Below, piece by piece: positions 1,300 through 54,225 of a stretch of DNA of 57,611 bases. This DNA comes from Komagataeibacter nataicola (GTDB lineage: Bacteria; Pseudomonadota; Alphaproteobacteria; Acetobacterales; Acetobacteraceae), in assembly GCF_003207795.1 (NCBI RefSeq), contig NZ_NIRT01000020.1:1-57611 (forward strand). The letters run 5' to 3'. Every line of letters begins with the position of its first letter. Positions within the stretch are counted from its first letter, which is position 1. The position numbers were made by a program, and so were the translations under genes. The notes below the pieces were generated by a model that did no database searches, was not told where the DNA came from, and saw nothing but the letters and a program-made list of their open reading frames with translations.

Positions 1300-1926
1300 T
1301 TAATTGCTGGAGCTGAGGGTAAACATTGTGTCAGGCCAGGCCTGGCCGCTGACCGTGGTATCGGTCAGGTCGAGGCGGATGTGCTGGCGTTCCACATCCG
1401 TCATTTCAATGACCAGCAGCGACAGCTTGCCCCCGATATCGGCGAATCCGAGGGTCAGGATGCCCTGCGATTCGCTGTCACGGCGCCCCAGCGAGACCTG
1501 CAGGCTGTTCTGGCCGTGCTGCACCGCCGTTACCGAAATCTGGCCAGACAGGTGCACCGGCTGGTCGAGCAGCAGGCCGAGCGGCTGCCGCCCAAGCGAC
1601 ATGCGGGTGACCGATTCGCGCCGGTGGTCGACAAAAAGCAGGTGGCCATCCGCCGCCACCAGCTTCATGCTGCCCGGCGTGGCATAATCCAGCCGCAGGC
1701 GGCCGGGGTCGTAATGCATGATCCCCTGCCCCTTGCCGCCATCGGGCCATGTCTGCACGAAATTGGCCTGTAGCCCGTGTGAGGTGTTGAGGTAGGTCTC
1801 GACGCGGGCGATGTCATCGGCCTGATTGGGTGTTGTGGTGGCAGGCGTGCCCGCGCAGGCGGCGAGCAGCGTGAGCAGGCCACCCATCATCAGCCGCCGC
1901 GTGGTGAAGGGAAAGGCGGGCTTCAT
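1300..1926 (-). CDS. LolA-like outer-membrane lipoprotein carrier family protein, itself a predicted lipoprotein
   Basis: The product resembles LolA, which ferries lipoproteins across the periplasm: LQANFVQTWPDGGKGQGIMHY is followed by the RLRLDYATPG strand and further beta-strand blocks. Unlike classical soluble LolA, the N-terminus (twin Arg, hydrophobic stretch, LLAAC near residue 24) reads as a lipoprotein signal with a lipobox, so the protein is probably membrane tethered. Its ATG overlaps the stop of the upstream bolA gene by four bases, so the two are translationally coupled. It could instead be a LolA-fold protein of another function. Confidence 0.75.
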   Translation of the reverse strand: MKPAFPFTTRRLMMGGLLTLLAACAGTPATTTPNQADDIARVETYLNTSHGLQANFVQTWPDGGKGQGIMHYDPGRLRLDYATPGSMKLVAADGHLLFVDHRRESVTRMSLGRQPLGLLLDQPVHLSGQISVTAVQHGQNSLQVSLGRRDSESQGILTLGFADIGGKLSLLVIEMTDVERQHIRLDLTDTTVSGQAWPDTMFTLSSSN

Positions 1927-2267
1927 GCCGTGGCCATCCGTGCCTGCTCGTCTGGCGTGCGCAGCACGAGCGAGAGCGCATGCATGCCGCCTGCAAATTC
2001 ACCCGCCAGCAGGTCATGCACCAGGCGCGAGCGCTGCACGCGGCCCACACCCTCGAAGGCGGGGCTCACGATCAGCACGTTATAGTGACTTTCCCCCGCC
2101 TGCACGCCGTTGTCGCGCACATGCACGTGGTGGGCGTGGCGGGCACTGTCATCGTGGATGGTGAGTTCCACCGGGGCGAGGTGTTCGCGTATGATGCGGT
2201 CGATCCGTCCGGCCCGGCCGGTTGCGTGCTGTTCCATTGGCGGCTCCATGATAGCGGGATCATTCAT
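1923..2267 (-). CDS. bolA: BolA family protein
   Basis: BolA proteins act with monothiol glutaredoxins in iron-sulfur cluster traffic and stress response. The conserved core is visible: RIDRIIREHLAPVELTIHDDS, then HHVHVRDNG, GESHYNVLIVSPAFEG and the helix RLVHDLLAGEF with a histidine available for cluster ligation. I chose the ATG at 2267 (MNDPAI...), giving 114 aa; an upstream in-frame start would add a hydrophobic, cysteine-rich segment not expected for BolA. It overlaps the LolA-like gene by four bases and is divergent from the J-domain gene. Confidence 0.88.
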   Translation of the reverse strand: MNDPAIMEPPMEQHATGRAGRIDRIIREHLAPVELTIHDDSARHAHHVHVRDNGVQAGESHYNVLIVSPAFEGVGRVQRSRLVHDLLAGEFAGGMHALSLVLRTPDEQARMATA

Positions 2268-2316
2268 TGCACAGCTTCGCTCTTGCACGAAGCATGGACA
2301 GGCGCACATAACGGGA

Positions 2317-2946
2317 ATGATGAAGAGAAGGAACACCCGGCACCGCGCCTTTGACCCCGATCCCGATGCGCCGGACCGCTGCTGCGACATGCATGACTGC
2401 GACCAGCCCGCAGGCTACCGGGCCCCGCGCTCGCGTGATGCACTGAACAAGTATTTCTGGTTCTGCCTTGAACATGTGCGTGAATACAATTCACGGTGGG
2501 ACTATTATCGCGGCATGTCACCCGGCCAGATCGAGGCGCATATACGCGCTGATGCCTCATGGGACCGTCCTTCGTGGAAGCTTGGCCAGGGCAGCGCCGC
2601 CCGCGCGTTCAGCGAGGATGACGTGATCGACCCGCTCGACCTGCTCAAGGGGGCGGCCCGGGCGCGCGCACGCACCCGTACCCGCCGCCAGCACGATGAG
2701 GACCGCCGGGCCGACGCACCCCAGGCGCTGCGCTACCCGCTTGGCGTGCTCGACCTGGGCTGGCCCGTGTCGATGGAGGAACTCAAGACCCGCTACAAGC
2801 TGCTCGCCCGCCAGCATCATCCCGATGCGAATGGCGGCGACCGCAAGGCCGAAGAGCGCTTCAAGGGCATCAATATCGCCTACACCACTGTGCGTGCGCA
2901 TCTGATCGCCACCAGCGGGCGCGAGGACGTGGCCCGGCGCGCCTGA
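2317..2946 (+). CDS. J-domain (DnaJ-like) protein
   Basis: About 210 aa. The C-terminal part is a J domain with YPLGVLDLGWPVSMEELKTRYKLLARQHHPDANGGD; the HPD tripeptide that stimulates Hsp70 ATPase is intact near residue 170. The N-terminal 100 residues carry two CxxxHxC-like clusters (CCDMHDC) and aromatic-rich sequence typical of an alphaproteobacterial single-J-domain family. There is no G/F region or zinc-finger domain, so it is a specialised co-chaperone rather than DnaJ itself. Start taken at the first of two adjacent ATGs. Confidence 0.85.
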   Translation: MMKRRNTRHRAFDPDPDAPDRCCDMHDCDQPAGYRAPRSRDALNKYFWFCLEHVREYNSRWDYYRGMSPGQIEAHIRADASWDRPSWKLGQGSAARAFSEDDVIDPLDLLKGAARARARTRTRRQHDEDRRADAPQALRYPLGVLDLGWPVSMEELKTRYKLLARQHHPDANGGDRKAEERFKGINIAYTTVRAHLIATSGREDVARRA

Positions 2947-3067
2947 AACGGGCCGCGCCATCATATGGCCGATCTGTTACAGATATGTTTATACTTAAAG
3001 CCCGATATGCCGCCCTGCGCTGTCATGGTGGGCCCTAACAGACGAAGTGACGGACGAGATAAAGCAG

Positions 3068-4093
3068 ATGAACGAACCAGCAGACCTGACAACTGCCGCC
3101 GTGGATGCCAACGGCACGCCCCTTCCCGCCATTTCGAGCGTCAATGCGCCAGACCTGCAGGTTACGGCGCGCGATGTGTTCGGCATTGACAGCGACATGA
3201 AGGTGCCTGCCTTCTCGGTGCGTACGGATCACGTGCCTGATATCGACCCGTCGTATAAATTCGACCATGACACCACGCTGGCCATCCTGGCGGGGTTTGC
3301 CTTCAACCGCCGCGTCATGGTGCAGGGCTATCATGGCACCGGCAAGTCATCGCATATCGAGCAGGTCGCCGCCCGGCTCAACTGGCCGAGCGTGCGCATC
3401 AACCTTGACAGTCACATCTCGCGCATCGACCTGATCGGCAAGGACGCGATCGTGCTGAAGGACGGCCAGCAGATTACGGAATTCCGCGAAGGCCTGCTGC
3501 CATGGGGCCTGCAGCACCCCTGCGCTCTGGTGTTTGATGAATATGATGCCGGCCGGCCTGACGTGATGTTCGTGATCCAGCGCGTGCTTGAGGTGGAAGG
3601 CCACCTGACGCTGCTCGACCAGAACCGTGTGATCCGCCCGCACCCCTTCTTCCGCCTGTTCGCCACGGCCAACACGGTGGGCCTGGGCGATACGACGGGC
3701 CTGTATCATGGCACGCAGCAGATCAACCAGGGCCAGATGGACCGCTGGAACATCGTGACCACGCTCAACTACCTGCCCCATGCGCAGGAAACCGCCATCG
3801 TGCTGGCCAAGATGGGCATCGACCCCAAAAAGGACGAAGCGGGCCGCAAGCGGGTGGAAAGCATGGTGGCGCTGGCCGACCTCACGCGCTCGGGCTTCAT
3901 CGCGGGTGACATTTCCACGGTCATGTCGCCGCGCACGGTCATCAGCTGGGCGGAAAATTTCCGTATTTTCAACGATCTTGCTTTCGCTTTCCGCGTTACG
4001 TTCCTCAACAAGTGCGATGAGGCGGAGCGCCCCACGGTGGCGGAGTATTACCAGCGCTGCTTTAACGCCAGCCCGCTGGCGCCACGGGGCTGA
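3068..4093 (+). CDS. cobS: Aerobic cobaltochelatase subunit CobS (AAA+ ATPase)
   Basis: CobS and CobT form the ATP-driven chaperone module of the CobNST complex that inserts cobalt into hydrogenobyrinate diamide. Visible are the N-terminal [16 protein letters not shown] signature, Walker [10 protein letters not shown] near residue 90, Walker [12 protein letters not shown] near 157 and the [10 protein letters not shown] sensor block. About 341 aa, the usual size. A GTG at 3047 could extend it by seven residues. Its stop overlaps the cobT start by one base. No cobN is in the window, so the large subunit must be encoded elsewhere. Confidence 0.94.
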
Positions 4094-46146: not shown

Positions 46147-46239
46147 GGAGGGGTGGCCGAGTGGCTGAAGGCGGCGGTTTGCTAAACCGTTATACGATGT
46201 CAAGTCGTATCGAGGGTTCGAATCCCTTCCCCTCCGCCA
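46147..46239 (+). tRNA. tRNA-Ser (anticodon GCU), integration target
   Basis: Acceptor GGAGGGG pairs with CCCCTCC, followed by G and an encoded CCA. The anticodon loop TTGCTAA gives GCU (reads AGC/AGU). A long variable arm (TATACGATGTCAAGTCGTAT) marks class II, and the T arm is GAGGG-TTCGAAT-CCCTT. 93 nt. From the first base of the anticodon loop onward it forms the left copy of the repeat that bounds the mobile element, so it stays intact after integration. Confidence 0.95.
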
Positions 46240-46240
46240 A
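46179..46240 (+). repeat. attL, left copy of the 62-base direct repeat
   Basis: Runs from the first base of the anticodon loop (TTGCTAA) through the CCA plus one A. Identical to 54,164-54,225 at 60 of 62 positions; the two differences are at 46,215 (G versus A) and 46,225 (C versus T). Confidence 0.95.
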
Positions 46241-46349
46241 CAAGCCTAATCTATTGACACCAATGAACAATGTTGTAAAAAACCCGAAATAATCGGCGGT
46301 TTTTCTGCATTTTTTTAGCGTGCTGTCAAGCCAAAAAAATCACCTGATA

Positions 46350-46376
46350 TCTAACAACAATTCAACAACAACAACA
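46350..46376. promoter_or_regulatory. Candidate integrase arm-type sites, left end
   Basis: TCTAACAACAA (46,350-46,360) is followed by CAACAACAACAACAG. The same 11-base string occurs near the right end at 54,104-54,114. Shared short repeats just inside both ends are what tyrosine integrase arm-binding sites look like. Confidence 0.5.
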
Positions 46377-46415
46377 GAATCCCCCTGCCCTGCTGTTGGT
46401 GGATTCGTCGTGTTG

Positions 46416-48344
46416 TCACCTGATTCGCAAGCCTTCGGATGCATCTTGTTCAGGCGTCTGATTTTGGTCTGTCTGATGGCCTGAAACCTGCTGATGATAT
46501 TCCTGCGCTTGTTGTGCAATCAGTTTATCCAGCGTCTTGTTTTCATCTTCAATGCGTATGTGTTCGCGGATTTCACCGTGCGCGTGCGTGATATGCGTTT
46601 TTAACCCGTCTATATCTGCGAATTGTGACTCATATTTTGATGTTTCACCGTTCCAAATCTTCCTTAATTCAATTAATGTCAATTTGTCGTATTCGTTTGC
46701 CGATTTATCTAATTCCTTCATATATAACTCAGGGAACAGATTCGCTATTTGTTCACTCATGTAGTCGTTTCCAAGGTCGTTTAACCATTCCTGAAATCCT
46801 GCATGTGGCACGTCATGTTTTTTGCATAAATTCGAATATGTCATATATGCCGAACGATATAAACCAAGTGCTTTATATGTCACCGTTTTCTTTTCTTGTT
46901 CGGTCATTAAATCAAAGTCTTCACGTGACACGGGTGGCTGAACATCTGGTTTTTTAATAATAGGTGTTGGCTTATTTTTTCTTATTGAATATCCGAATAA
47001 GCGCAGGAACATATCAACAAGTAACAAAGATACATTTGCATCTATAGATTTATTATATGTATCTATATGATACTCTTGGTCTTTTATATTTTTGTATTGT
47101 TCTCTATAAAAATCACGATTGCCCGTTTTTTCTTTTGCTAATTTATCTTTTATATTTTGTAAATATTCAGGCGTGATAATCGCAAACTTTTCCCTTTTTT
47201 TGAAATCCCCGCGCTTTCTTATTTTTGCTGATGCGATGACATTTTTAGAATGTGCGACTGGTTTTTTATAATCTCGTTGTTCTGTTCCGCTATCGTGTTC
47301 AACAGGTCTAAAATCTGCTGAATCGGGTCTGGCTGGTCGTTTTCTGGTTTGTCTGTTAGCAAATCCAAAATCTGTCCTGTGTCCGCTTTCACCTTCATCA
47401 ATGTCGGGTTTTCTTGTGGTCGTGTGGTCGTTTTTGGTTTTTGCTGAATCGGCTTTTTTGGTGTTGGTGTCGGTTTCTTTTTTTCTTCCGTTTTCGTTTT
47501 GTTCGGCCATAATTTCATTGGTCTGCTCCTTGTAATCATTAAACATTTTTGCAAAATCTTGTTTCTTAATTTTCAAAAGTCGGCTGGCTGAACCAACCAA
47601 GACACCGTCCCGCTCAATTATGAACGTGTCCTTTTTGATTCCTTTTTTTAGTAAAAATCCGTTTTCATTTAATGCGCTGATAAACGCTTTTATGCCGTCG
47701 CATTGTTTCCATATCGCTGATATGCGGGCCTTCTCATCTGGTAGTGATAAGCCCTGGCGCTCTGCTATTCTGCGGGTTTCTTCACCATATGATGCGTGCG
47801 GTAACGGTGCGCTTGTTGTGTGCTGTATGGCTTTCGCTTGTGCTGTTTTCCCCTCATCAAGCAACTGTTTAAAAACGGCTTTGTTGTGCTTGCCTGTTAA
47901 GATTTTCTGACCTGTTCGGATTTCGGACAAACGGCTAAGTTTCTCGTTTCTTTTGTAATTATTCCGCATATTTAAGGCTTTGCCTGTCTGCGGGTTTAGA
48001 TGCGGGGCAATTAAATGCCAATGTATCGGGCTGTTGCTTGCGGTTGCGCGTTTTTTGCGGTGTTCAACAATCACGCAATCATTTAATTCAAAGCCATACT
48101 CTTTTGATATCGCTTTAAAATCTTCTTGCGCTTGCTCTCTTGATATTTCTTTATCGGGGGAAATCTTAAAATGATGAAAGCCATACTTTAGCCCCGCATT
48201 GTGTGCATCTTGCATCATGTCTTCCATTGTTTCGGGACAACCCTGCAATGGTGTAATTTGTTCGTTTGCGGGTCCGCTGAATATGTGTTTTGCGGTCTTT
48301 TGGTGCCCCGCTGATGCCAATATTTGCCCGCCTTTTATAATCAT
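46416..48344 (-). CDS. mobA: Relaxase (MobA-like mobilization nuclease)
   Basis: 642 aa. The first 150 residues hold the relaxase-like domain: GLKYGFHHFKISPDKEIS and the metal-binding histidines in SPIHWHLIAPHLNPQTGKALN near residue 110. The middle (about 280-400) is a low-complexity Lys/Thr/Asp linker, the rest is helical and charged. Its ATG overlaps the mobC-like stop by four bases. A second gene is embedded in another frame at 47,219-47,518. AT-rich codon use. Would nick at oriT and pilot the strand for transfer. Confidence 0.78.
   Translation of the reverse strand: MIIKGGQILASAGHQKTAKHIFSGPANEQITPLQGCPETMEDMMQDAHNAGLKYGFHHFKISPDKEISREQAQEDFKAISKEYGFELNDCVIVEHRKKRATASNSPIHWHLIAPHLNPQTGKALNMRNNYKRNEKLSRLSEIRTGQKILTGKHNKAVFKQLLDEGKTAQAKAIQHTTSAPLPHASYGEETRRIAERQGLSLPDEKARISAIWKQCDGIKAFISALNENGFLLKKGIKKDTFIIERDGVLVGSASRLLKIKKQDFAKMFNDYKEQTNEIMAEQNENGRKKETDTNTKKADSAKTKNDHTTTRKPDIDEGESGHRTDFGFANRQTRKRPARPDSADFRPVEHDSGTEQRDYKKPVAHSKNVIASAKIRKRGDFKKREKFAIITPEYLQNIKDKLAKEKTGNRDFYREQYKNIKDQEYHIDTYNKSIDANVSLLLVDMFLRLFGYSIRKNKPTPIIKKPDVQPPVSREDFDLMTEQEKKTVTYKALGLYRSAYMTYSNLCKKHDVPHAGFQEWLNDLGNDYMSEQIANLFPELYMKELDKSANEYDKLTLIELRKIWNGETSKYESQFADIDGLKTHITHAHGEIREHIRIEDENKTLDKLIAQQAQEYHQQVSGHQTDQNQTPEQDASEGLRIR
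47219..47518 (-). CDS. Nested gene inside the relaxase, MobB-like by position
   Basis: A 99-codon frame lying wholly within mobA in another reading frame. It has its own AAGGAG seven bases before ATG at 47,518. The N-terminal half is Lys/Pro/Thr-rich (KKPTPTPKKPIQQKPKTTT); the C-terminal half is an amphipathic helix with regular Leu/Ile spacing (PIQQILDLLNTIAEQNNEII), suggesting an oligomerising coiled coil. In ColE1-type plasmids mobB is likewise nested in mobA. No sequence homology is claimed. Confidence 0.6.
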   Translation of the reverse strand: MKLWPNKTKTEEKKKPTPTPKKPIQQKPKTTTRPQENPTLMKVKADTGQILDLLTDKPENDQPDPIQQILDLLNTIAEQNNEIIKNQSHILKMSSHQQK

Positions 48345-48676
48345 GACAACCGCCCCCGCATTGATGCCGTTAGTTTTGCTAACTGCTTGCGTAAGCGTGT
48401 TATTTCTTTCAATTCGTCGTTTATGTTTCCTATTTGTTCGCCACCGTTCACGCGCTTTGCAATCTGATTCAGATTGTTGCCCTGTGCTGATAATTCGCGC
48501 CTAATCGCTTGTAATTCCGTGCGTATTTCGTCGCCTTTTGTGTTGGTTACAATGGCTTGCGTAATATGCTCACGGACAAGAACAGAAAGGCTTTTTTTTA
48601 TTGATTTTGCGTATGACTGCGCTTTTGCTTTTTCGTTGTCGGTCATACGGATATGCAATGTTGATTCGCGTATCAT
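48341..48676 (-). CDS. mobC: MobC-like relaxosome accessory protein
   Basis: 111 aa. The N-terminal part ESTLHIRMTDNEKAKAQSYAKSIKKSLSVLVREHI fits a ribbon-helix-helix DNA-binding fold; the later ELSAQGNNLNQIAKRVNGG is the characteristic MobC block (NNLNQIA). Its stop overlaps the relaxase start (ATGA), typical of mobCA operons. Confidence 0.8.
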   Translation of the reverse strand: MIRESTLHIRMTDNEKAKAQSYAKSIKKSLSVLVREHITQAIVTNTKGDEIRTELQAIRRELSAQGNNLNQIAKRVNGGEQIGNINDELKEITRLRKQLAKLTASMRGRLS

Positions 48677-48685
48677 TTTTGCAAA

Positions 48686-48859
48686 TCACAGTTTTATGCC
48701 GTGCGTATAATGTGCAAGCCACACGTCTATATTGCTTGCGTCATCTTTATTGAATTCAATATATTTCAATAATTCTTTTTTTTCTTGTCTTGATAAATGT
48801 GATACCCTCATATCAAAATATGTTATGTCATCATGTGATGTATTATTTTCCTTTTTCAT
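48686..48859 (-). CDS. Small protein of the mobilization operon
   Basis: 57 aa (MKKENNTSHDDITYFDMRVS...). A GGGGGA lies nine bases upstream of the ATG, and the gene ends nine bases before mobC, 12 bases after the next gene upstream ends. The central part SHLSRQEKKELLKYIEFNKDDASNIDVW is helical, in the manner of small RHH or accessory proteins. No family recognised. Confidence 0.6.
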   Translation of the reverse strand: MKKENNTSHDDITYFDMRVSHLSRQEKKELLKYIEFNKDDASNIDVWLAHYTHGIKL

Positions 48860-48871
48860 TATCATTCCCCC

Positions 48872-49357
48872 TTATTTATTATATTCTGCTAACTTTTTTA
48901 GAATTGTATTTTTTGCTATTCGTGTCGTTTTTTTTGTCTGCAATGTTCTTGAAAAAGCAGACCACCATCCTTTTGACATATATACATAGTTTGGTTGTAA
49001 TTCTTTCCATTTTTCACATATATATTCTTTCATTTCTTTTGATAATGTTGTGCTGTAACATTTTCCAGACATTGTGACACCGAACATTTTGAAACCATAA
49101 TATTGATTTACTGATTTCATAATTGCGTTTATTTTTGCATTTCTTCCTTGTTTTTCAAACGGTCTTATTTTTATAGAAAAATTAACCGTCTCCTGTGCTA
49201 TCTTTTTCAGTTTTATATCATCAAAAAATATCATGTCTTTCGTAATAAATTGCGTCGGCGTTTTATGTATTTGATAGACTGAAAACAAAGATTTGCCACC
49301 GATGATAGGCATACCGACGGTTTCCGTCATTGATGCTAAATAATTGTAATCAATCAT
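48872..49357 (-). CDS. Element protein of unknown function
   Basis: 161 aa, basic and Lys-rich at the C-terminus (LQTKKTTRIAKNTILKKLAEYNK). Blocks MPIIGGKSLFSVYQIHKTPTQFITKDMIFFDD and NQYYGFKMFGVTMSGKCYSTTLS look folded. AT-rich codon use like its neighbours. Co-oriented with the mob genes; no family recognised. Confidence 0.6.
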   Translation of the reverse strand: MIDYNYLASMTETVGMPIIGGKSLFSVYQIHKTPTQFITKDMIFFDDIKLKKIAQETVNFSIKIRPFEKQGRNAKINAIMKSVNQYYGFKMFGVTMSGKCYSTTLSKEMKEYICEKWKELQPNYVYMSKGWWSAFSRTLQTKKTTRIAKNTILKKLAEYNK

Positions 49358-49370
49358 ATCTTTTCCCCTT

Positions 49371-49634
49371 TTATATCTTGTTTCTTTCGTTAATATTTTG
49401 TGTGAAATTAGGTTTTTCAGGTGTTTTGATTTCTGGTTTCTTTACTTCTTCATCGGTCTTGATTTCTTCTTTTTTGTTTTCTGATTTGTGTATTTTCATC
49501 AAGTCTGTTTTAATTTTCTGCAAACTATTGATGTGTGTTATTGTGTAGCGGTTGCCCTGATTGTTCAGTTCGGCATTTTCAAAAATATTGATAATTTCAT
49601 TTAACTTGTTGATTAATATTGACGTGTTTGACAT
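49371..49634 (-). CDS. Small charged element protein of unknown function
   Basis: 87 aa from the ATG at 49,634, which follows GGAG; an upstream ATG at 49,661 lacks a ribosome site. N-terminal half helical (ILINKLNEIINIFENAELNN), C-terminal half Lys/Glu/Pro-rich and disordered (KKEEIKTDEEVKKPEIKTPEK). First gene of the putative mobilization operon; might be a regulator or excision factor, but nothing shows it. Confidence 0.55.
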   Translation of the reverse strand: MSNTSILINKLNEIINIFENAELNNQGNRYTITHINSLQKIKTDLMKIHKSENKKEEIKTDEEVKKPEIKTPEKPNFTQNINERNKI

Positions 49635-49656
49635 TGATGTATCTCCTTGCAATTTA

Positions 49657-49674
49657 TTCATGTGTATTCATGAA
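49657..49674. promoter_or_regulatory. Candidate operator upstream of the mobilization operon
   Basis: Inverted repeat TTCATG-TGTATT-CATGAA, 23 bases upstream of the first operon start. A possible promoter (TTGAGT, 17 bases, TTACAT, minus strand) lies to its right, so the palindrome would fall near the transcription start. Confidence 0.4.
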
Positions 49675-49740
49675 CTTCATACATCTATGTAAACAGATAT
49701 ATTCTTAATACTCAAGAAAATCGTGTATTGTTGTCTATAT

Positions 49741-49872
49741 TGCCAGGCATGGCGAATGTTAACACATTCACCAACTGGCAAAGGGGATAAAATCCCCTGT
49801 TGAACCCCTTTTCATCAGCATCATGACGCTGCGCGGGCTACGCCTGACGATTGCTCATCGTCATCCTGATGA
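49741..49872. other. Cluster of inverted repeats, candidate oriT or replication origin
   Basis: Successive stems: TGCCAG/CTGGCA (49,741-49,780) enclosing GAATGT/ACATTC; AGGGGAT/ATCCCCT (49,782-49,798); an interrupted long repeat TCATCAG ... CTGATGA (49,812-49,872) with ATGACG/CGTCAT inside; and TGACGAT/ATCGTCA (49,845-49,863). The second half is GC-richer than the rest of the element. It lies between the replication gene and the mob operon, where an oriT would be expected. Confidence 0.5.
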
Positions 49873-49947
49873 CCGCCGATATTTTGCCGTGTGCGCCTGC
49901 TTTTTGCTCATGGAAAGGCGAAGGAAGGGCGTCCCCTTCCGGTGCCT

Positions 49948-51495
49948 TCACAGCCTTCTACGGGCATCTGTGACGTATCGGGCATACTGGTGCTGTCTGC
50001 ATGGTGGCGGTATCCCCGTTATGTGTTTGTGTGACGTGTTTGTTTCCATATTTTGACTCCTTTTTTCTATTGACATGATTGCGTATTTTTGTATTTGTGC
50101 TATTGTTGGACCTCTTACGCGCACCCGTTCTTTTTTATTAATATTGTATACCTTATCGACTACACTACAGTTTCCGCCATTTTTGGAATGACCACTTGGA
50201 ATACAAAAACTGACGGCTTGAATCTTCGACGTTTCTGACGACAACCACGAACAACAACATTTTTTTAAATCTTTGAAAGCGCCAAGGTTATCAAGAACGG
50301 TCATCATGTTTCTTCGCTCTATGTGAAGCTTGATATATCGTTCCCTGTTGAATTGTTTTTTTTGTTCCGTTGTCATCCCTGCTTTGATTGATGCAAGCCT
50401 TTTGCGTCCAGCCTTTGACAACTTGTTATTATCGAAAACATTCACTTCGTGCGGGATTCTGAACATTCGGTCGTATGATTTGATGACGCCCTTTGGTATT
50501 CCGAAAAAGCGGGTTTCTGATGACACGACGAACTTTGATTCCTGTTTGTGGTGGTCATTGATGACATCAACTTTGGTGATGTATCGTGCCACGTGTTTTG
50601 CTGTTCCTTCGGTTATTCGTTGGATGCATTTTCCTTCACCAAAAGGATGATTTGCGTACTTTTTGTATAAGTTAAGTTCCATTTCATCGATTATGTCTGA
50701 TGGTGTAAATATGATGGCATGCATGTGCCATATTCCAGATGGCCGTTGTTCCATGGATTTCATGCCGAAGTTTTTGATATTTCGGTCATGTAGGGCTTTC
50801 TGCAATCCGTTCCATATGTCTGTGATGCATTGCTTTGATTGTCTGATGTTATTGCGGTCGCATGTTATTGTTAGGAACGTGCCCTTGTAGTCGTGACGTT
50901 GTGCGAACTCTTCCAAGCCACCAAGCAATGCGCGATTTCTGTACAATCTGGAACGCTTGGCGCGGTCGTTATCGGATAGGTCATATATTGGCTTAATGGT
51001 TTCCTGTTTTCCGTATTCATTTTTTCCAAAATGATACCAGTTGGTGGGCTGTTTGCTGTCATCATCTGTTATCGGTTCCTGGCCTGTTATCGGTTCGATT
51101 TCATTGAAATCAGGAAACTGTGACAAGACACGTGAAGCCCAGTCGTTTCCTTGTTTTTTGTATTCATTCAGGTGTGAAATCAGGCATGCCTTCAGTTCCC
51201 CGATTGTCCACCTTTCAGGTGTTCCGTCATCCCTGATTACGTCCACAGGGTCGGTATCGGATAACATTGATATGTTTGGTATGTGTTCGCGTCTTAGCCG
51301 TGTGACCTGTTGTTTGATAACGGGCTGTGCCTTTGCCATTTGCCACATTGATAACGGCGTATATGACGGGGCTGGTGGCTTGATGACGGGTTTTGATTCC
51401 TGTTCAGCCATCTGCCACATGCTGACGGGCTTAAACTTTTTTGCATGTGATTGATTTTTTTTCTTGATGTTTTCACATTTGTTTATTACATTCAT
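49948..51495 (-). CDS. HUH-type replication endonuclease (phage GPA/rolling-circle type)
   Basis: 515 aa. Rolling-circle motifs in order: motif 1 GTFLTITCDRN near residue 206, motif 2 IWHMHAIIF (HxH) near 257, motif 3 ARYITKVDV near 305 with Tyr and Lys. This matches phage replication gene A-type initiators. The N-terminal 50 residues contain a tandem duplication, KPVSMWQMA and TPLSMWQMA, about 23 residues apart. GAGGT precedes the ATG. Would nick an origin and allow replication of the excised circle. Confidence 0.75.
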   Translation of the reverse strand: MNVINKCENIKKKNQSHAKKFKPVSMWQMAEQESKPVIKPPAPSYTPLSMWQMAKAQPVIKQQVTRLRREHIPNISMLSDTDPVDVIRDDGTPERWTIGELKACLISHLNEYKKQGNDWASRVLSQFPDFNEIEPITGQEPITDDDSKQPTNWYHFGKNEYGKQETIKPIYDLSDNDRAKRSRLYRNRALLGGLEEFAQRHDYKGTFLTITCDRNNIRQSKQCITDIWNGLQKALHDRNIKNFGMKSMEQRPSGIWHMHAIIFTPSDIIDEMELNLYKKYANHPFGEGKCIQRITEGTAKHVARYITKVDVINDHHKQESKFVVSSETRFFGIPKGVIKSYDRMFRIPHEVNVFDNNKLSKAGRKRLASIKAGMTTEQKKQFNRERYIKLHIERRNMMTVLDNLGAFKDLKKCCCSWLSSETSKIQAVSFCIPSGHSKNGGNCSVVDKVYNINKKERVRVRGPTIAQIQKYAIMSIEKRSQNMETNTSHKHITGIPPPCRQHQYARYVTDARRRL

Positions 51496-51573
51496 AGTTA
51501 TAGACCTCGTGCTATTTTGGTGCGAATGTTCCTTTTGTCTGGGGGGATTGCGGGAACGGGTTAATTAGTTTGG

Positions 51574-51603
51574 GGCATCACCATTTTATGGTGGTGCCTT
51601 TTC
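51574..51603 (+). terminator. Terminator-like hairpin in the element
   Basis: GGCATCACC (51,574-51,582) pairs with GGTGGTGCC (51,590-51,598) with one G-T wobble and a seven-base loop, followed by TTTTCT on the plus strand. All neighbouring genes are on the minus strand, so what it terminates is unclear. Confidence 0.5.
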
Positions 51604-51698
51604 TATTATGAAACCAGATTTTTATGAAAAAGCAAAGAAAATTATTGACCTTTATGTTCAGGTCATTAGCATAAACGCCCTTAAAATGTAATTCTTTC

Positions 51699-51796
51699 GG
51701 CATCATGGTGTGGCACGTTGATTTTGTGAAAAATCAACTATGTCCCGAAGCGCCACGACAAGCATCACGTCAAGCGTGATGCTTGTGTTTGATGCC
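51699..51796. ncRNA. Multi-branched structured locus (candidate RNA or origin)
   Basis: Outer stem GGCATC (51,699-51,704) with GATGCC (51,791-51,796) encloses two arms. Arm A: GTGGC (51,710-51,714) with GCCAC (51,752-51,756) around the 9-base-pair hairpin GTTGATTTT/AAAATCAAC. Arm B: the perfect 11-base-pair hairpin CAAGCATCACG/CGTGATGCTTG (51,759-51,785). Together a closed three-way fold of 98 nt. Whether it works as RNA or as single-stranded DNA (for Rep or the relaxase) is not decidable here. Confidence 0.45.
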
Positions 51797-51854
51797 ACCC
51801 ACCTTCTAAATGGATTTCAAAAGTACGACTGATGTCATTTATTATTTTATATAT

Positions 51855-52862
51855 TTAGAACGGTATTTCATCATCGTCGCCAGGCGTATTTAATTCTACT
51901 AAACTTATTAAAGAATCATCCCAGTCGCCGGGAAGCATCGGCTTTAAAGATTTATTTTCATCAAATAGTGATTTTGACACTTGGAATATATAATGTGTAT
52001 CTTTACCCATACTGACATTGTAAACGGTAAAATCGTCTCTATCTTCTTCATCCCATAATTTGGGTGAAGAAACTAATTTTTTGCCTGCGCGAGCATAGCG
52101 AAGCCATTCGTCCATTTCATGTTCGTTGGTAAAAAATAGTCGATATCTCACACGTAAAAGTTTCCGCATTGCTGAAAATAAAGGATGATTTTGGATAAGG
52201 ATTTCATCCATCATGCGGTTCTTATCGTCTGAATCGCCACTTGTTGATGTTGTGCGGTAAAGTTCTGCTAATCCTTCTAAAGTGGATGTGACCTGTTCCA
52301 TTTTATTCATCATATCAACAAGTCGAACCTGCGCTTCTCCGTCAAGAAATCTTTCAAATAATCCAGCCCATTGTTCTCTTAAGTACGTAATAAGTTGTGG
52401 CATGCTATCAAACGGGAATATTTGATTATTCGCGCTCATGGCATATATTTCATCTATGAATTTATATACTCTAACATCATCAACATGTGAATATTGTATG
52501 CCCTTGACATCCTTGTTTTTTACGTATGTAAAATACTCAGACATGACACCAGATTCTATAAATATATAAACCTGCTTACCCTGCTTTTGTGCAGTTTTTA
52601 ATTCTATATTTGATATGGAATATTTATCTGATGCTTTGGATTGTGAACCAAACCGTCCCCCAATAATTGATATTAAGATATGTACTTTATTAATTTCATT
52701 GTAGCAGTAATCTTCCAGGGCAGATTCTTTTCCGTAGGGTATTTGTCCTCTTTCGTTTAATACTGGCTCATAACCCATATCTCTTATAAAGTGTTCGAGT
52801 TCCCCACGAGCCAGCCGTAAATCATAAAAAGTAGAACTAACAAAAATACGCGGTTTAGCCAT
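51855..52862 (-). CDS. DUF4062 domain protein, probable cargo
   Basis: 335 aa. The first 90 residues are the DUF4062 domain, a TIR-like Rossmann fold: PRIFVSSTFYDLRLARGELEHFI, NERGQIPYGKESALEDYCYNEI, HILISIIGGRFGSQS. The remainder has no recognised effector: a helical middle (about 160-230) and a mixed C-terminus. DUF4062 occurs in NTPase signalling proteins and in defence-like contexts, so an anti-phage or abortive role is a hypothesis. Not needed for integration or transfer, hence cargo. Confidence 0.75.
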   Translation of the reverse strand: MAKPRIFVSSTFYDLRLARGELEHFIRDMGYEPVLNERGQIPYGKESALEDYCYNEINKVHILISIIGGRFGSQSKASDKYSISNIELKTAQKQGKQVYIFIESGVMSEYFTYVKNKDVKGIQYSHVDDVRVYKFIDEIYAMSANNQIFPFDSMPQLITYLREQWAGLFERFLDGEAQVRLVDMMNKMEQVTSTLEGLAELYRTTSTSGDSDDKNRMMDEILIQNHPLFSAMRKLLRVRYRLFFTNEHEMDEWLRYARAGKKLVSSPKLWDEEDRDDFTVYNVSMGKDTHYIFQVSKSLFDENKSLKPMLPGDWDDSLISLVELNTPGDDDEIPF

Positions 52863-52934
52863 AAAAATGTGCCTTATTGAAGGGAATATATTTCCCCAAA
52901 AAAATATGTGTTATATCACAAAAAATCAACGATT

Positions 52935-54059
52935 TTATATGTCTTGTTCCAATTTGGCGCGGATGTCTTTTTCGCTGGCGTTCACATACCGCAACAGCGT
53001 TTGCATCGATTTGTGACCTGACTGGTTTGCGATAGCCCCGACCGATAGCCCTTTGTCTGCAAGCCTGCTGACTGCTTCGTGACGCAAATCATGAAGGCGT
53101 AGGTCTTTCAGTCCTGCTTTGTCACGCGCCCTGACAAACCAGTTTTCGACCGTATGTGATGAAATCGAAAACAGCGGTGTGTTGTCTGGTTTTGCCTTGA
53201 TGCCATCATATAATGGCTGGACTGCTTGAACTGCCCGTGATGATAGATATACGACGCGTCTGTGCCCGTTTTTCGTGTCTTTTTTCGTGACTGACCAGCC
53301 TCGCTTTGTTCGGCTGATTTCGTCTTTTGTGATGCTAAGGATTTCGGATTTTCGCATTCCTGTTTCGATGGATAATGTCATAAATGGCGTCATCTGGTCG
53401 GCATACATACCGTCTGCGATGGCATCCATTAAAACTTCTTCTTCATATTTGTTAAGTCGTCTTTGTCTGTTTCCGTGAACTGCGGGTAACGCAACGTCTT
53501 TGACGGGGTTTGAAATATCAAGCCCCCAGCCGTGTTTTGTCACTGGTTTTCCAGCAATTTCATAGATTGCTGAAATCCTATATATATCATTTCTGACGGT
53601 TGACGGTGACTTTGTTCTTGACCGTTCTTTAACCCATTCGGCTATCATGTGCGGTGTTATTTCGCAAAGTTTCATTTCTGAAAATCTTGATTGTTGCCAT
53701 GCGTTCAATCTTAATAATGCTTGCTTGAAACCTTTCAGCTTATCCAGTTCAGTTAGCTTATATTCTTGGATTGCGCGTGATAGCGTCCAGTCGATTGACG
53801 GCGTTGCGTCTTGCAGTCGTTCGTCTTCACGCTGTGCCTTCTTAGATTTTGCGGGTGCGGTCTTTTTCGGAATGTAGTCGTATTTATCAAACGGCTTGCC
53901 CGTTGCCAGTTCGTCCTTAATTGCGCGTTCAACTCGTTCCGTCCATTCCTTCGCCTGCGACCTAACTGGGAACGTAAGCGAAACTGAATGACCATTAAGC
54001 CTGACGGTCCCCGTATATTTCCAGGCTCCTACTTTCCCGCGTTTCTGAATCTGTTTCAT
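52935..54059 (-). CDS. int: Tyrosine integrase of the element
   Basis: 374 aa. An N-terminal AP2-like arm-binding domain (KVGAWKYTGTVRLNGHSVSLTFPVRSQAKEW) and SAM-like core-binding domain precede the catalytic domain. Catalytic residues: Arg in ETGMRKSEIL near 234, HDLRHEAVSRL near 324, SGHKSMQTLLRYVN with the nucleophilic Tyr near 357. Transcribed away from attR, 105 bases from the right repeat. Expected to recombine at the tRNA-Ser anticodon loop. Confidence 0.93.
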   Translation of the reverse strand: MKQIQKRGKVGAWKYTGTVRLNGHSVSLTFPVRSQAKEWTERVERAIKDELATGKPFDKYDYIPKKTAPAKSKKAQREDERLQDATPSIDWTLSRAIQEYKLTELDKLKGFKQALLRLNAWQQSRFSEMKLCEITPHMIAEWVKERSRTKSPSTVRNDIYRISAIYEIAGKPVTKHGWGLDISNPVKDVALPAVHGNRQRRLNKYEEEVLMDAIADGMYADQMTPFMTLSIETGMRKSEILSITKDEISRTKRGWSVTKKDTKNGHRRVVYLSSRAVQAVQPLYDGIKAKPDNTPLFSISSHTVENWFVRARDKAGLKDLRLHDLRHEAVSRLADKGLSVGAIANQSGHKSMQTLLRYVNASEKDIRAKLEQDI

Positions 54060-54103
54060 GGAATCCGCCTGTTTTTGGTTGTTGTTGCCCCTATAATTAA
54101 CAT

Positions 54104-54140
54104 TCTAACAACAAATACAAAAAAAAAGACAACAAATACA
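54104..54140. promoter_or_regulatory. Candidate integrase arm-type sites, right end
   Basis: Two direct copies of ACAACAAATACA start at 54,108 and 54,129, 21 bases apart (two helical turns), separated by an A-run. The first overlaps TCTAACAACAA (54,104-54,114), which also occurs at the left end. Confidence 0.55.
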
Positions 54141-54163
54141 GGAAATCCGTAGCTTAGGGGGAA

Positions 54164-54225
54164 TTGCTAAACCGTTATACGATGTCAAGTCGTATCGAGA
54201 GTTCGAATCTCTTCCCCTCCGCCAA
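54164..54225 (+). repeat. attR, right copy of the 62-base direct repeat
   Basis: Copy of the tRNA-Ser 3' half from anticodon loop to CCA-A without a tRNA 5' half in front of it. The T arm reads GAGAG-TTCGAAT-CTCTT, that is, an A-U pair where the functional gene has G-C, with pairing preserved. Confidence 0.95.

Follow-up and report, generated by a model that had tools for sequence, protein, structure and literature searches.

The mobA locus and the frame within it

The window analysed here is a stretch of 57,611 nucleotides of contig NZ_NIRT01000020.1 from Komagataeibacter nataicola. Positions 46179-54199 probably constitute an integrated element of about 8 kb, inserted in a tRNA-Ser gene and carrying an integrase, a Rep-like protein, mobC and mobA. 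The features on which the analysis rests are the following.

46147..46239, plus strand: tRNA-Ser (gct), the attachment target of the element
46179..46214, plus strand: 36-bp direct repeat within the tRNA-Ser, probable att site
46416..48344, minus strand: mobA, a relaxase of 642 aa with a MobA/VirD2-like nuclease domain (PF03432, E 1.4e-08), host of the nested frame
47219..47518, minus strand: nested gene of 99 aa in the +1 frame of mobA
47526..47531, minus strand: AAGGAG, Shine-Dalgarno of the nested gene, 7 bases 5' of its ATG
48341..48676, minus strand: mobC-like gene (NikA-like PF21983, MobC PF05713), with a 4-base overlap with the mobA start
49948..51495, minus strand: replication-initiator-like protein (Phage_GPA, REP_ORF2-G2P)
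52935..54059, minus strand: tyrosine integrase (PF00589)
54164..54199, plus strand: the other exact copy of the 36-bp repeat, probably marking the far end of the element

A DUF4062 protein (PF13271, E 8.1e-15) at 51855-52862 also lies within the element and is possible cargo. The named relative nearest to the mobA relaxase is from Komagataeibacter diospyri (62%), and IMG/VR, queried with mobA, gave none. A further relaxase of this genome shares 400 identical residues with a plasmid relaxase of Komagataeibacter nataicola.

The nested frame opens with an ATG at 47518-47516, at mobA codon 275, and the end of its stop codon is at 47219; in mobA, the middle base of this ATG serves as position 3 of an Asn codon. 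A sequence-only reading of this DNA had described an AAGGAG seven bases before the ATG of a 99-codon frame entirely within mobA, and both the coordinates and the spacing are right. Its account of the product, a Lys/Pro-rich half joined to an amphipathic helix, also holds. Residues 1-47 contain 13 Lys or Arg and 8 Pro, and the AlphaFold model places helices at 38-55 and 65-98, with the N-terminal half at low confidence and block pLDDT means of 78-94 over the second helix. The hydrophobic moment of helix 65-98 was matched by 4 of 2000 shuffles; the moments of helix 38-55 (514/2000) and of the last part of the protein, residues 80-98 (516/2000), were not significant. A fold search of the model against the PDB matched no solved fold, and sequence matches in the PDB were weak (best E 0.0016, to Nup62), the rest being mostly designed helical proteins.

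The length of the frame was compared with shuffled versions of mobA. Synonymous shuffling left the nested interval open in the +1 frame in 424 of 5000 cases and produced a +1 run no shorter than the full open frame of 117 codons in 562 of 5000; permutation of whole codons gave such a run in 52 of 5000. Length alone is therefore weak evidence, and it is the comparison with relatives that decides. The sites at which synonymous choice in mobA could place a stop in the nested frame are used at 0 of 6 positions inside the interval, as against 38 of 81 elsewhere in the gene.

Homologues of the nested protein in two types of relaxase gene

Relatives of the relaxase were collected from 397 genomes of the family, 61 of which matched, and 19 genomes of the genus (7 matched), together with GTDB contigs (2 loci) and plasmids (9 records); only the best of these matches were retrieved as loci. 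When the first 32 loci were searched with a profile of nine nested proteins (A1), 12 gave a member, always in the +1 frame. Apart from these clear members there was one borderline case, L018, and 19 loci had no member; the nine plasmid records with relaxase relatives gave no convincing match to the profile. The nested gene is therefore accessory rather than universal. The sequence-only reading had set relaxase relatives without the nested frame as evidence against a gene, and we take these 19 loci as the mark of an accessory gene instead. A member in Paradonghicola (L032, E 1.6e-05) was recovered although it lay outside the nine-row profile.

Searched across the 397 family genomes, profile A1 matched 13 genomes in 14 places, which comprise 11 MOBP-type relaxase genes, one TraA-type gene and two decayed loci. 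A 12-row profile (A2) matched 33 of 375 genomes of the order, 3 of 385 of the class (one being the window's own genome and one a false positive) and 2 of 378 of the phylum (one again the window's own genome); these sets overlap, and some of the matched places were retrieved as loci. Over the 85 loci, 32 distinct open pieces matched the profile at E<=0.01, and 29 of them sit within relaxase genes, in the +1 frame, so that the search for the nested frame in related relaxases proposed by the sequence-only reading came out in its favour. Nineteen of the 29 are in MOBP-like and ten in TraA-like relaxase genes, nine of the ten TraA copies being nearly identical to each other. Among the MOBP-like hosts, 18 match mobA over residues 1-270, and that of L057 is cut at its 5' end and matches mobA further on; the ten TraA-like hosts match TraA. 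The nine-row profile matches all 29 members at 3.2e-05 or better, and 20 of the 29 are absent from that profile. Beyond the acetic acid bacteria, members occur in two further genomes of Alphaproteobacteria, G626 and Paradonghicola. An alternative-frame protein is conserved across relatives, as expected of an overlapping gene, and it sits in a relaxase gene in another frame, as a nested mobilization gene in the broad sense does.

Several frames were kept apart from these counts. The match in L084, within an unrelated frame of 622 aa, is a false positive. L018 was excluded as borderline (10.9 bits); it is a 136-aa +1 frame at relaxase codons 300-436 with GGAGG 5' of its ATG, possibly a distant member. 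L043, a +1 piece in a 158-codon remnant, and L044 are copies of the nested gene in decay, their frames interrupted and no full-length relaxase frame surrounding them. On a Marivivens plasmid (L051, 1726-2860) a listed gene in the +1 frame overlaps the end of a short relaxase at the corresponding place; it may be a half-nested state, is dissimilar by profile (about 0 bits) and was left out.

In an alignment of 21 members, Pro at residue 65 is invariant and I50, L53, L73 and I76 are nearly so. An aromatic/lysine tip (e.g. MFNWMKK, MFGRKKK) opens six of the longer members, and the shorter members have no Lys/Pro-rich tail.

A different contig of the window's own genome carries a second member (L085; G000:C61, 10717-10974), nested in a Ti-type TraA relaxase gene with PF03389 and helicase domains. 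In TraA the nested gene falls between a HAHVMLS-type motif and a GFG-K stretch, within an insertion that is absent from three aligned relatives (Sphingobium pSY3, Ti C58 and Paracoccus). The MOBQ-type member matched seven named plasmids of Komagataeibacter and Kozakia by tblastn, where the listed feature is the TraA or MobA/MobL gene alone in a plasmid gene table that is incomplete; tblastn of plasmids with five MOBP-type members found nothing. A nested profile built from MOBP members only scored L045 at 29.6 bits, L085 at 26.4, L083 at 26.1 and L032 at 21.1, each above all 2000 plain shuffles and all 2000 shuffles that preserve the hydrophobic pattern, with a narrow margin for L085 (best patterned shuffle 25.3 bits). 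A relaxase-frame motif near the nested stop (e.g. LIAAARLR) was also considered as a shared feature of the hosts. Its regular expression, written after the sequences had been viewed, hit 6 of 21 hosts and none of 20 controls, and a MOBP-only profile failed to recover the MOBQ hosts at E<=1; we make no claim of it because it is partly forced by the nested stop codon.

The nested proteins had no convincing match in the family libraries searched. The best values were 0.033 in Pfam, 0.023 in NCBIfam and 0.022 in PHROGs for nine members and 0.02 in PADLOC for 21 members, all chance-like. Judged by their sequences, these proteins form a separate family embedded in two relaxase types.

Start signals and selection on the two frames

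The members have their own, conserved ribosome-binding site and start, as an overlapping gene should. Of 21 members examined, 18 have a Shine-Dalgarno core of 5 bases or more ahead of the ATG, compared with 13 of 423 other out-of-frame ATGs, and all 21 have a match of at least 4 bases there, compared with 59 of 423; the count is somewhat inflated, because the ATG was picked with the site in view where several ATGs existed. In a non-redundant set the core of at least 5 bases was found in 12 of 15 members (p 2e-14).

Position 1 of a codon in the mobA frame is position 3 in the nested frame, and host position 3 is nested position 2. Four of the seven pairs of loci that carry the nested gene showed a shift between codon positions: outside the interval host position 3 changes most, and inside it position 1 does. 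The changes at relaxase codon positions 1/2/3 in these pairs, with the Fisher p, were as follows.

L001/L031: 44/26/29 inside, 164/110/278 outside, p 1.7e-04
L003/L069: 55/27/31 inside, 86/59/185 outside, p 1.2e-07
L006/L072: 44/33/18 inside, 196/126/279 outside, p 8.4e-06
L061/L062: 19/10/3 inside, 40/28/72 outside, p 1.1e-05

Changes inside were few in L015/L016 and L059/L063, where the shift was not significant (p 0.13 and 1), and the very divergent pair L005/L006 showed neither a shift nor reduced synonymous change. The closest available pairs that lack the gene served as controls, seven in number and, since they were drawn from six loci, not independent; in these, position 3 was highest in codons 280-370.

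The sequence-only reading had suggested a check of synonymous conservation. Synonymous change was reduced in L015/L016 and L059/L063 (p 0.0005 and 0.0004), but also in two of the seven control pairs (p 0.017 and 0.022), and in the 590-aa clade the stretches of low variation run past the nested gene. As reduced synonymous change is unspecific, the codon-position shift and dNN/dNS carry the argument. Pooled over five MOBP pairs (459 codons inside and 2695 outside, with L005/L006 and L059/L063 left out; 95% bootstrap intervals), the nested dNN/dNS was 0.39 (0.31-0.47) inside versus 0.76 (0.69-0.83) outside, and the relaxase dNN/dSN was 0.92 (0.73-1.18) inside versus 0.33 (0.30-0.35) outside. The pooled nested dSN/dSS was 1.08 (0.40-4.47) versus 0.76, and with so few doubly silent sites this ratio is uninformative. 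The only TraA (MOBQ) pair gave a dNN/dNS of 0.84 inside versus 1.01 outside, a weak frame signal. The purifying selection expected of an overlapping gene is thus found in MOBP hosts, is weak in the single MOBQ pair and is absent in L005/L006. On these ratios the nested frame is the selected one in the interval in the MOBP pairs and the relaxase linker frame is near neutral, which makes the relaxase residues of the interval look like a passenger. This result revises the picture of an alternative frame that evolved over a relaxase linker: the nesting in mobA stands, but it is the nested frame that is conserved.

Two explanations would remove the independent gene. The frame might be a chance opening over a low-complexity linker, untranslated, with the constraint coming from a nucleotide signal or from base composition. 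The 424 of 5000 synonymous shuffles that leave the interval open and the two control pairs with reduced synonymous change speak for such a view; against it speak a +1 protein conserved family-wide, MOBQ hosts included, the dNN/dNS shift together with the conserved Shine-Dalgarno sites, the seven control pairs (six loci, not independent) in which position 3 stays the fastest-changing, and an Rfam search of 46240-49400 that had no match. We consider it exceedingly improbable. Programmed +1 frameshifting into the nested frame, which would yield a short relaxase tailed by the nested helix, could draw on the members that are open for up to 28 codons 5' of the ATG. In L031 and L069, however, a single sense codon separates the upstream in-frame stop from the nested ATG, which argues against frameshifting, and the Shine-Dalgarno and ATG are conserved; this explanation is very unlikely. 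The claim of a nested protein-coding gene made by the sequence-only reading is strongly supported by the homologues, the conserved Shine-Dalgarno sites and the codon-position statistics.

Possible function and spread of the nested gene

The reading that we favour, at a probability of roughly 0.6, is that mobA contains a real gene whose product is a small helical accessory mobilization factor. The role in mobilization is suggested by the nesting parallels in ColE1, RSF1010 and pSNC3-Kan and by the helical model. The parallel with ColE1 had been drawn in the sequence-only reading, and it holds in layout: mbeB and mbeD, like the nested gene, lie wholly within the relaxase gene mbeA, in the +1 frame and with AAGGAG upstream. 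Homology was not found by the tests run. None of nine members matched MbeB_N (PF04837) or MbeD_MobD (PF04899), whereas the positive controls ColE1 MbeB and MbeD were detected at 3.6e-22 and 1.9e-35, and the nested protein has no detectable sequence similarity to either. ColE1 has two nested genes; here one was found, in other relaxase hosts. No transmembrane stretch is evident in the nested protein sequence, whereas ColE1 MbeB has such a segment; RSF1010 MobB has a transmembrane end. In plasmids of the RSF1010 and ColE1 types, nested MobB does a job of the kind proposed here, presenting the relaxase-oriT complex. The nested protein is thus probably analogous to nested MobB, MbeB and MbeD and not a member of those families.

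RSF1010 has a like arrangement: according to a passage of one paper, its mobB too is encoded out of frame within the relaxase gene mobA/repB, and the proteins MobA, MobB and MobC are described there as essential to mobilization (PMC2200642). RSF1010 MobA is a MOBQ relaxase according to a passage elsewhere (PMC12857230). For pSNC3-Kan, a ColE-like plasmid of enteric bacteria and different in this respect, the relevant passage gives mobA at 1659-3212, mobB at 2347-2865 and mobD at 2872-3105 and calls MobB and MobD internally encoded (PMC9282650); from these coordinates the start offsets of mobB and mobD compute to +1, as for the nested gene. Among the papers that searches of an open library brought up, taken by their titles and the beginnings of their abstracts, none dealt with a gene nested in the relaxases of acetic acid bacteria.

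The nested protein would be made from the mob mRNA by internal initiation along with the relaxase. The helix at its C-terminus, which follows the invariant Pro, probably forms a coiled coil through which the protein oligomerises, and the basic Lys/Pro-rich tail of the longer members probably contacts DNA or membrane. Most likely it would hold or present the relaxase-oriT complex to a helper type IV secretion system, and nesting would keep the gene linked to its relaxase at each transfer. A real nested protein might instead act outside the relaxosome, in mobilization entry exclusion or in the regulation of mob expression. Its size and helical character resemble those of MbeD, which is nested in the same frame and which the ColE1 record names a mobilization/exclusion protein; the lack of sequence similarity to MbeD, with PF04899 silent on all nine members, speaks against this role, and we judge it rather unlikely. 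The accessory mobilization factor remains our preferred reading.

On a relaxase-domain tree of 47 rows, which carries long-branch and composition warnings, the 18 nested rows require 5 changes, at least 4 of them forced by well-supported branches, and the distribution must therefore reflect repeated loss, repeated gain or both. The boldest account, which we hold tentatively and at somewhat less than even odds, is that a dual-coding cassette of the nested gene and its host stretch moved between MOBP MobA and Ti-type MOBQ TraA with the +1 register kept; a quieter one would have repeated loss and one transfer. If the cassette account is true, a relaxase linker has been repurposed as the carrier of an undescribed family of mobilization proteins.

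Nested mob genes were already known from ColE1 and RSF1010; those described here belong to a separate protein family, embedded in two relaxase types of acetic acid bacteria, and conservation falls on the hidden frame instead of the listed one. The case suggests that mobilization genes lying within relaxases escape annotation by gene callers, and the role of a nested mobilization protein becomes testable by a single silent change.
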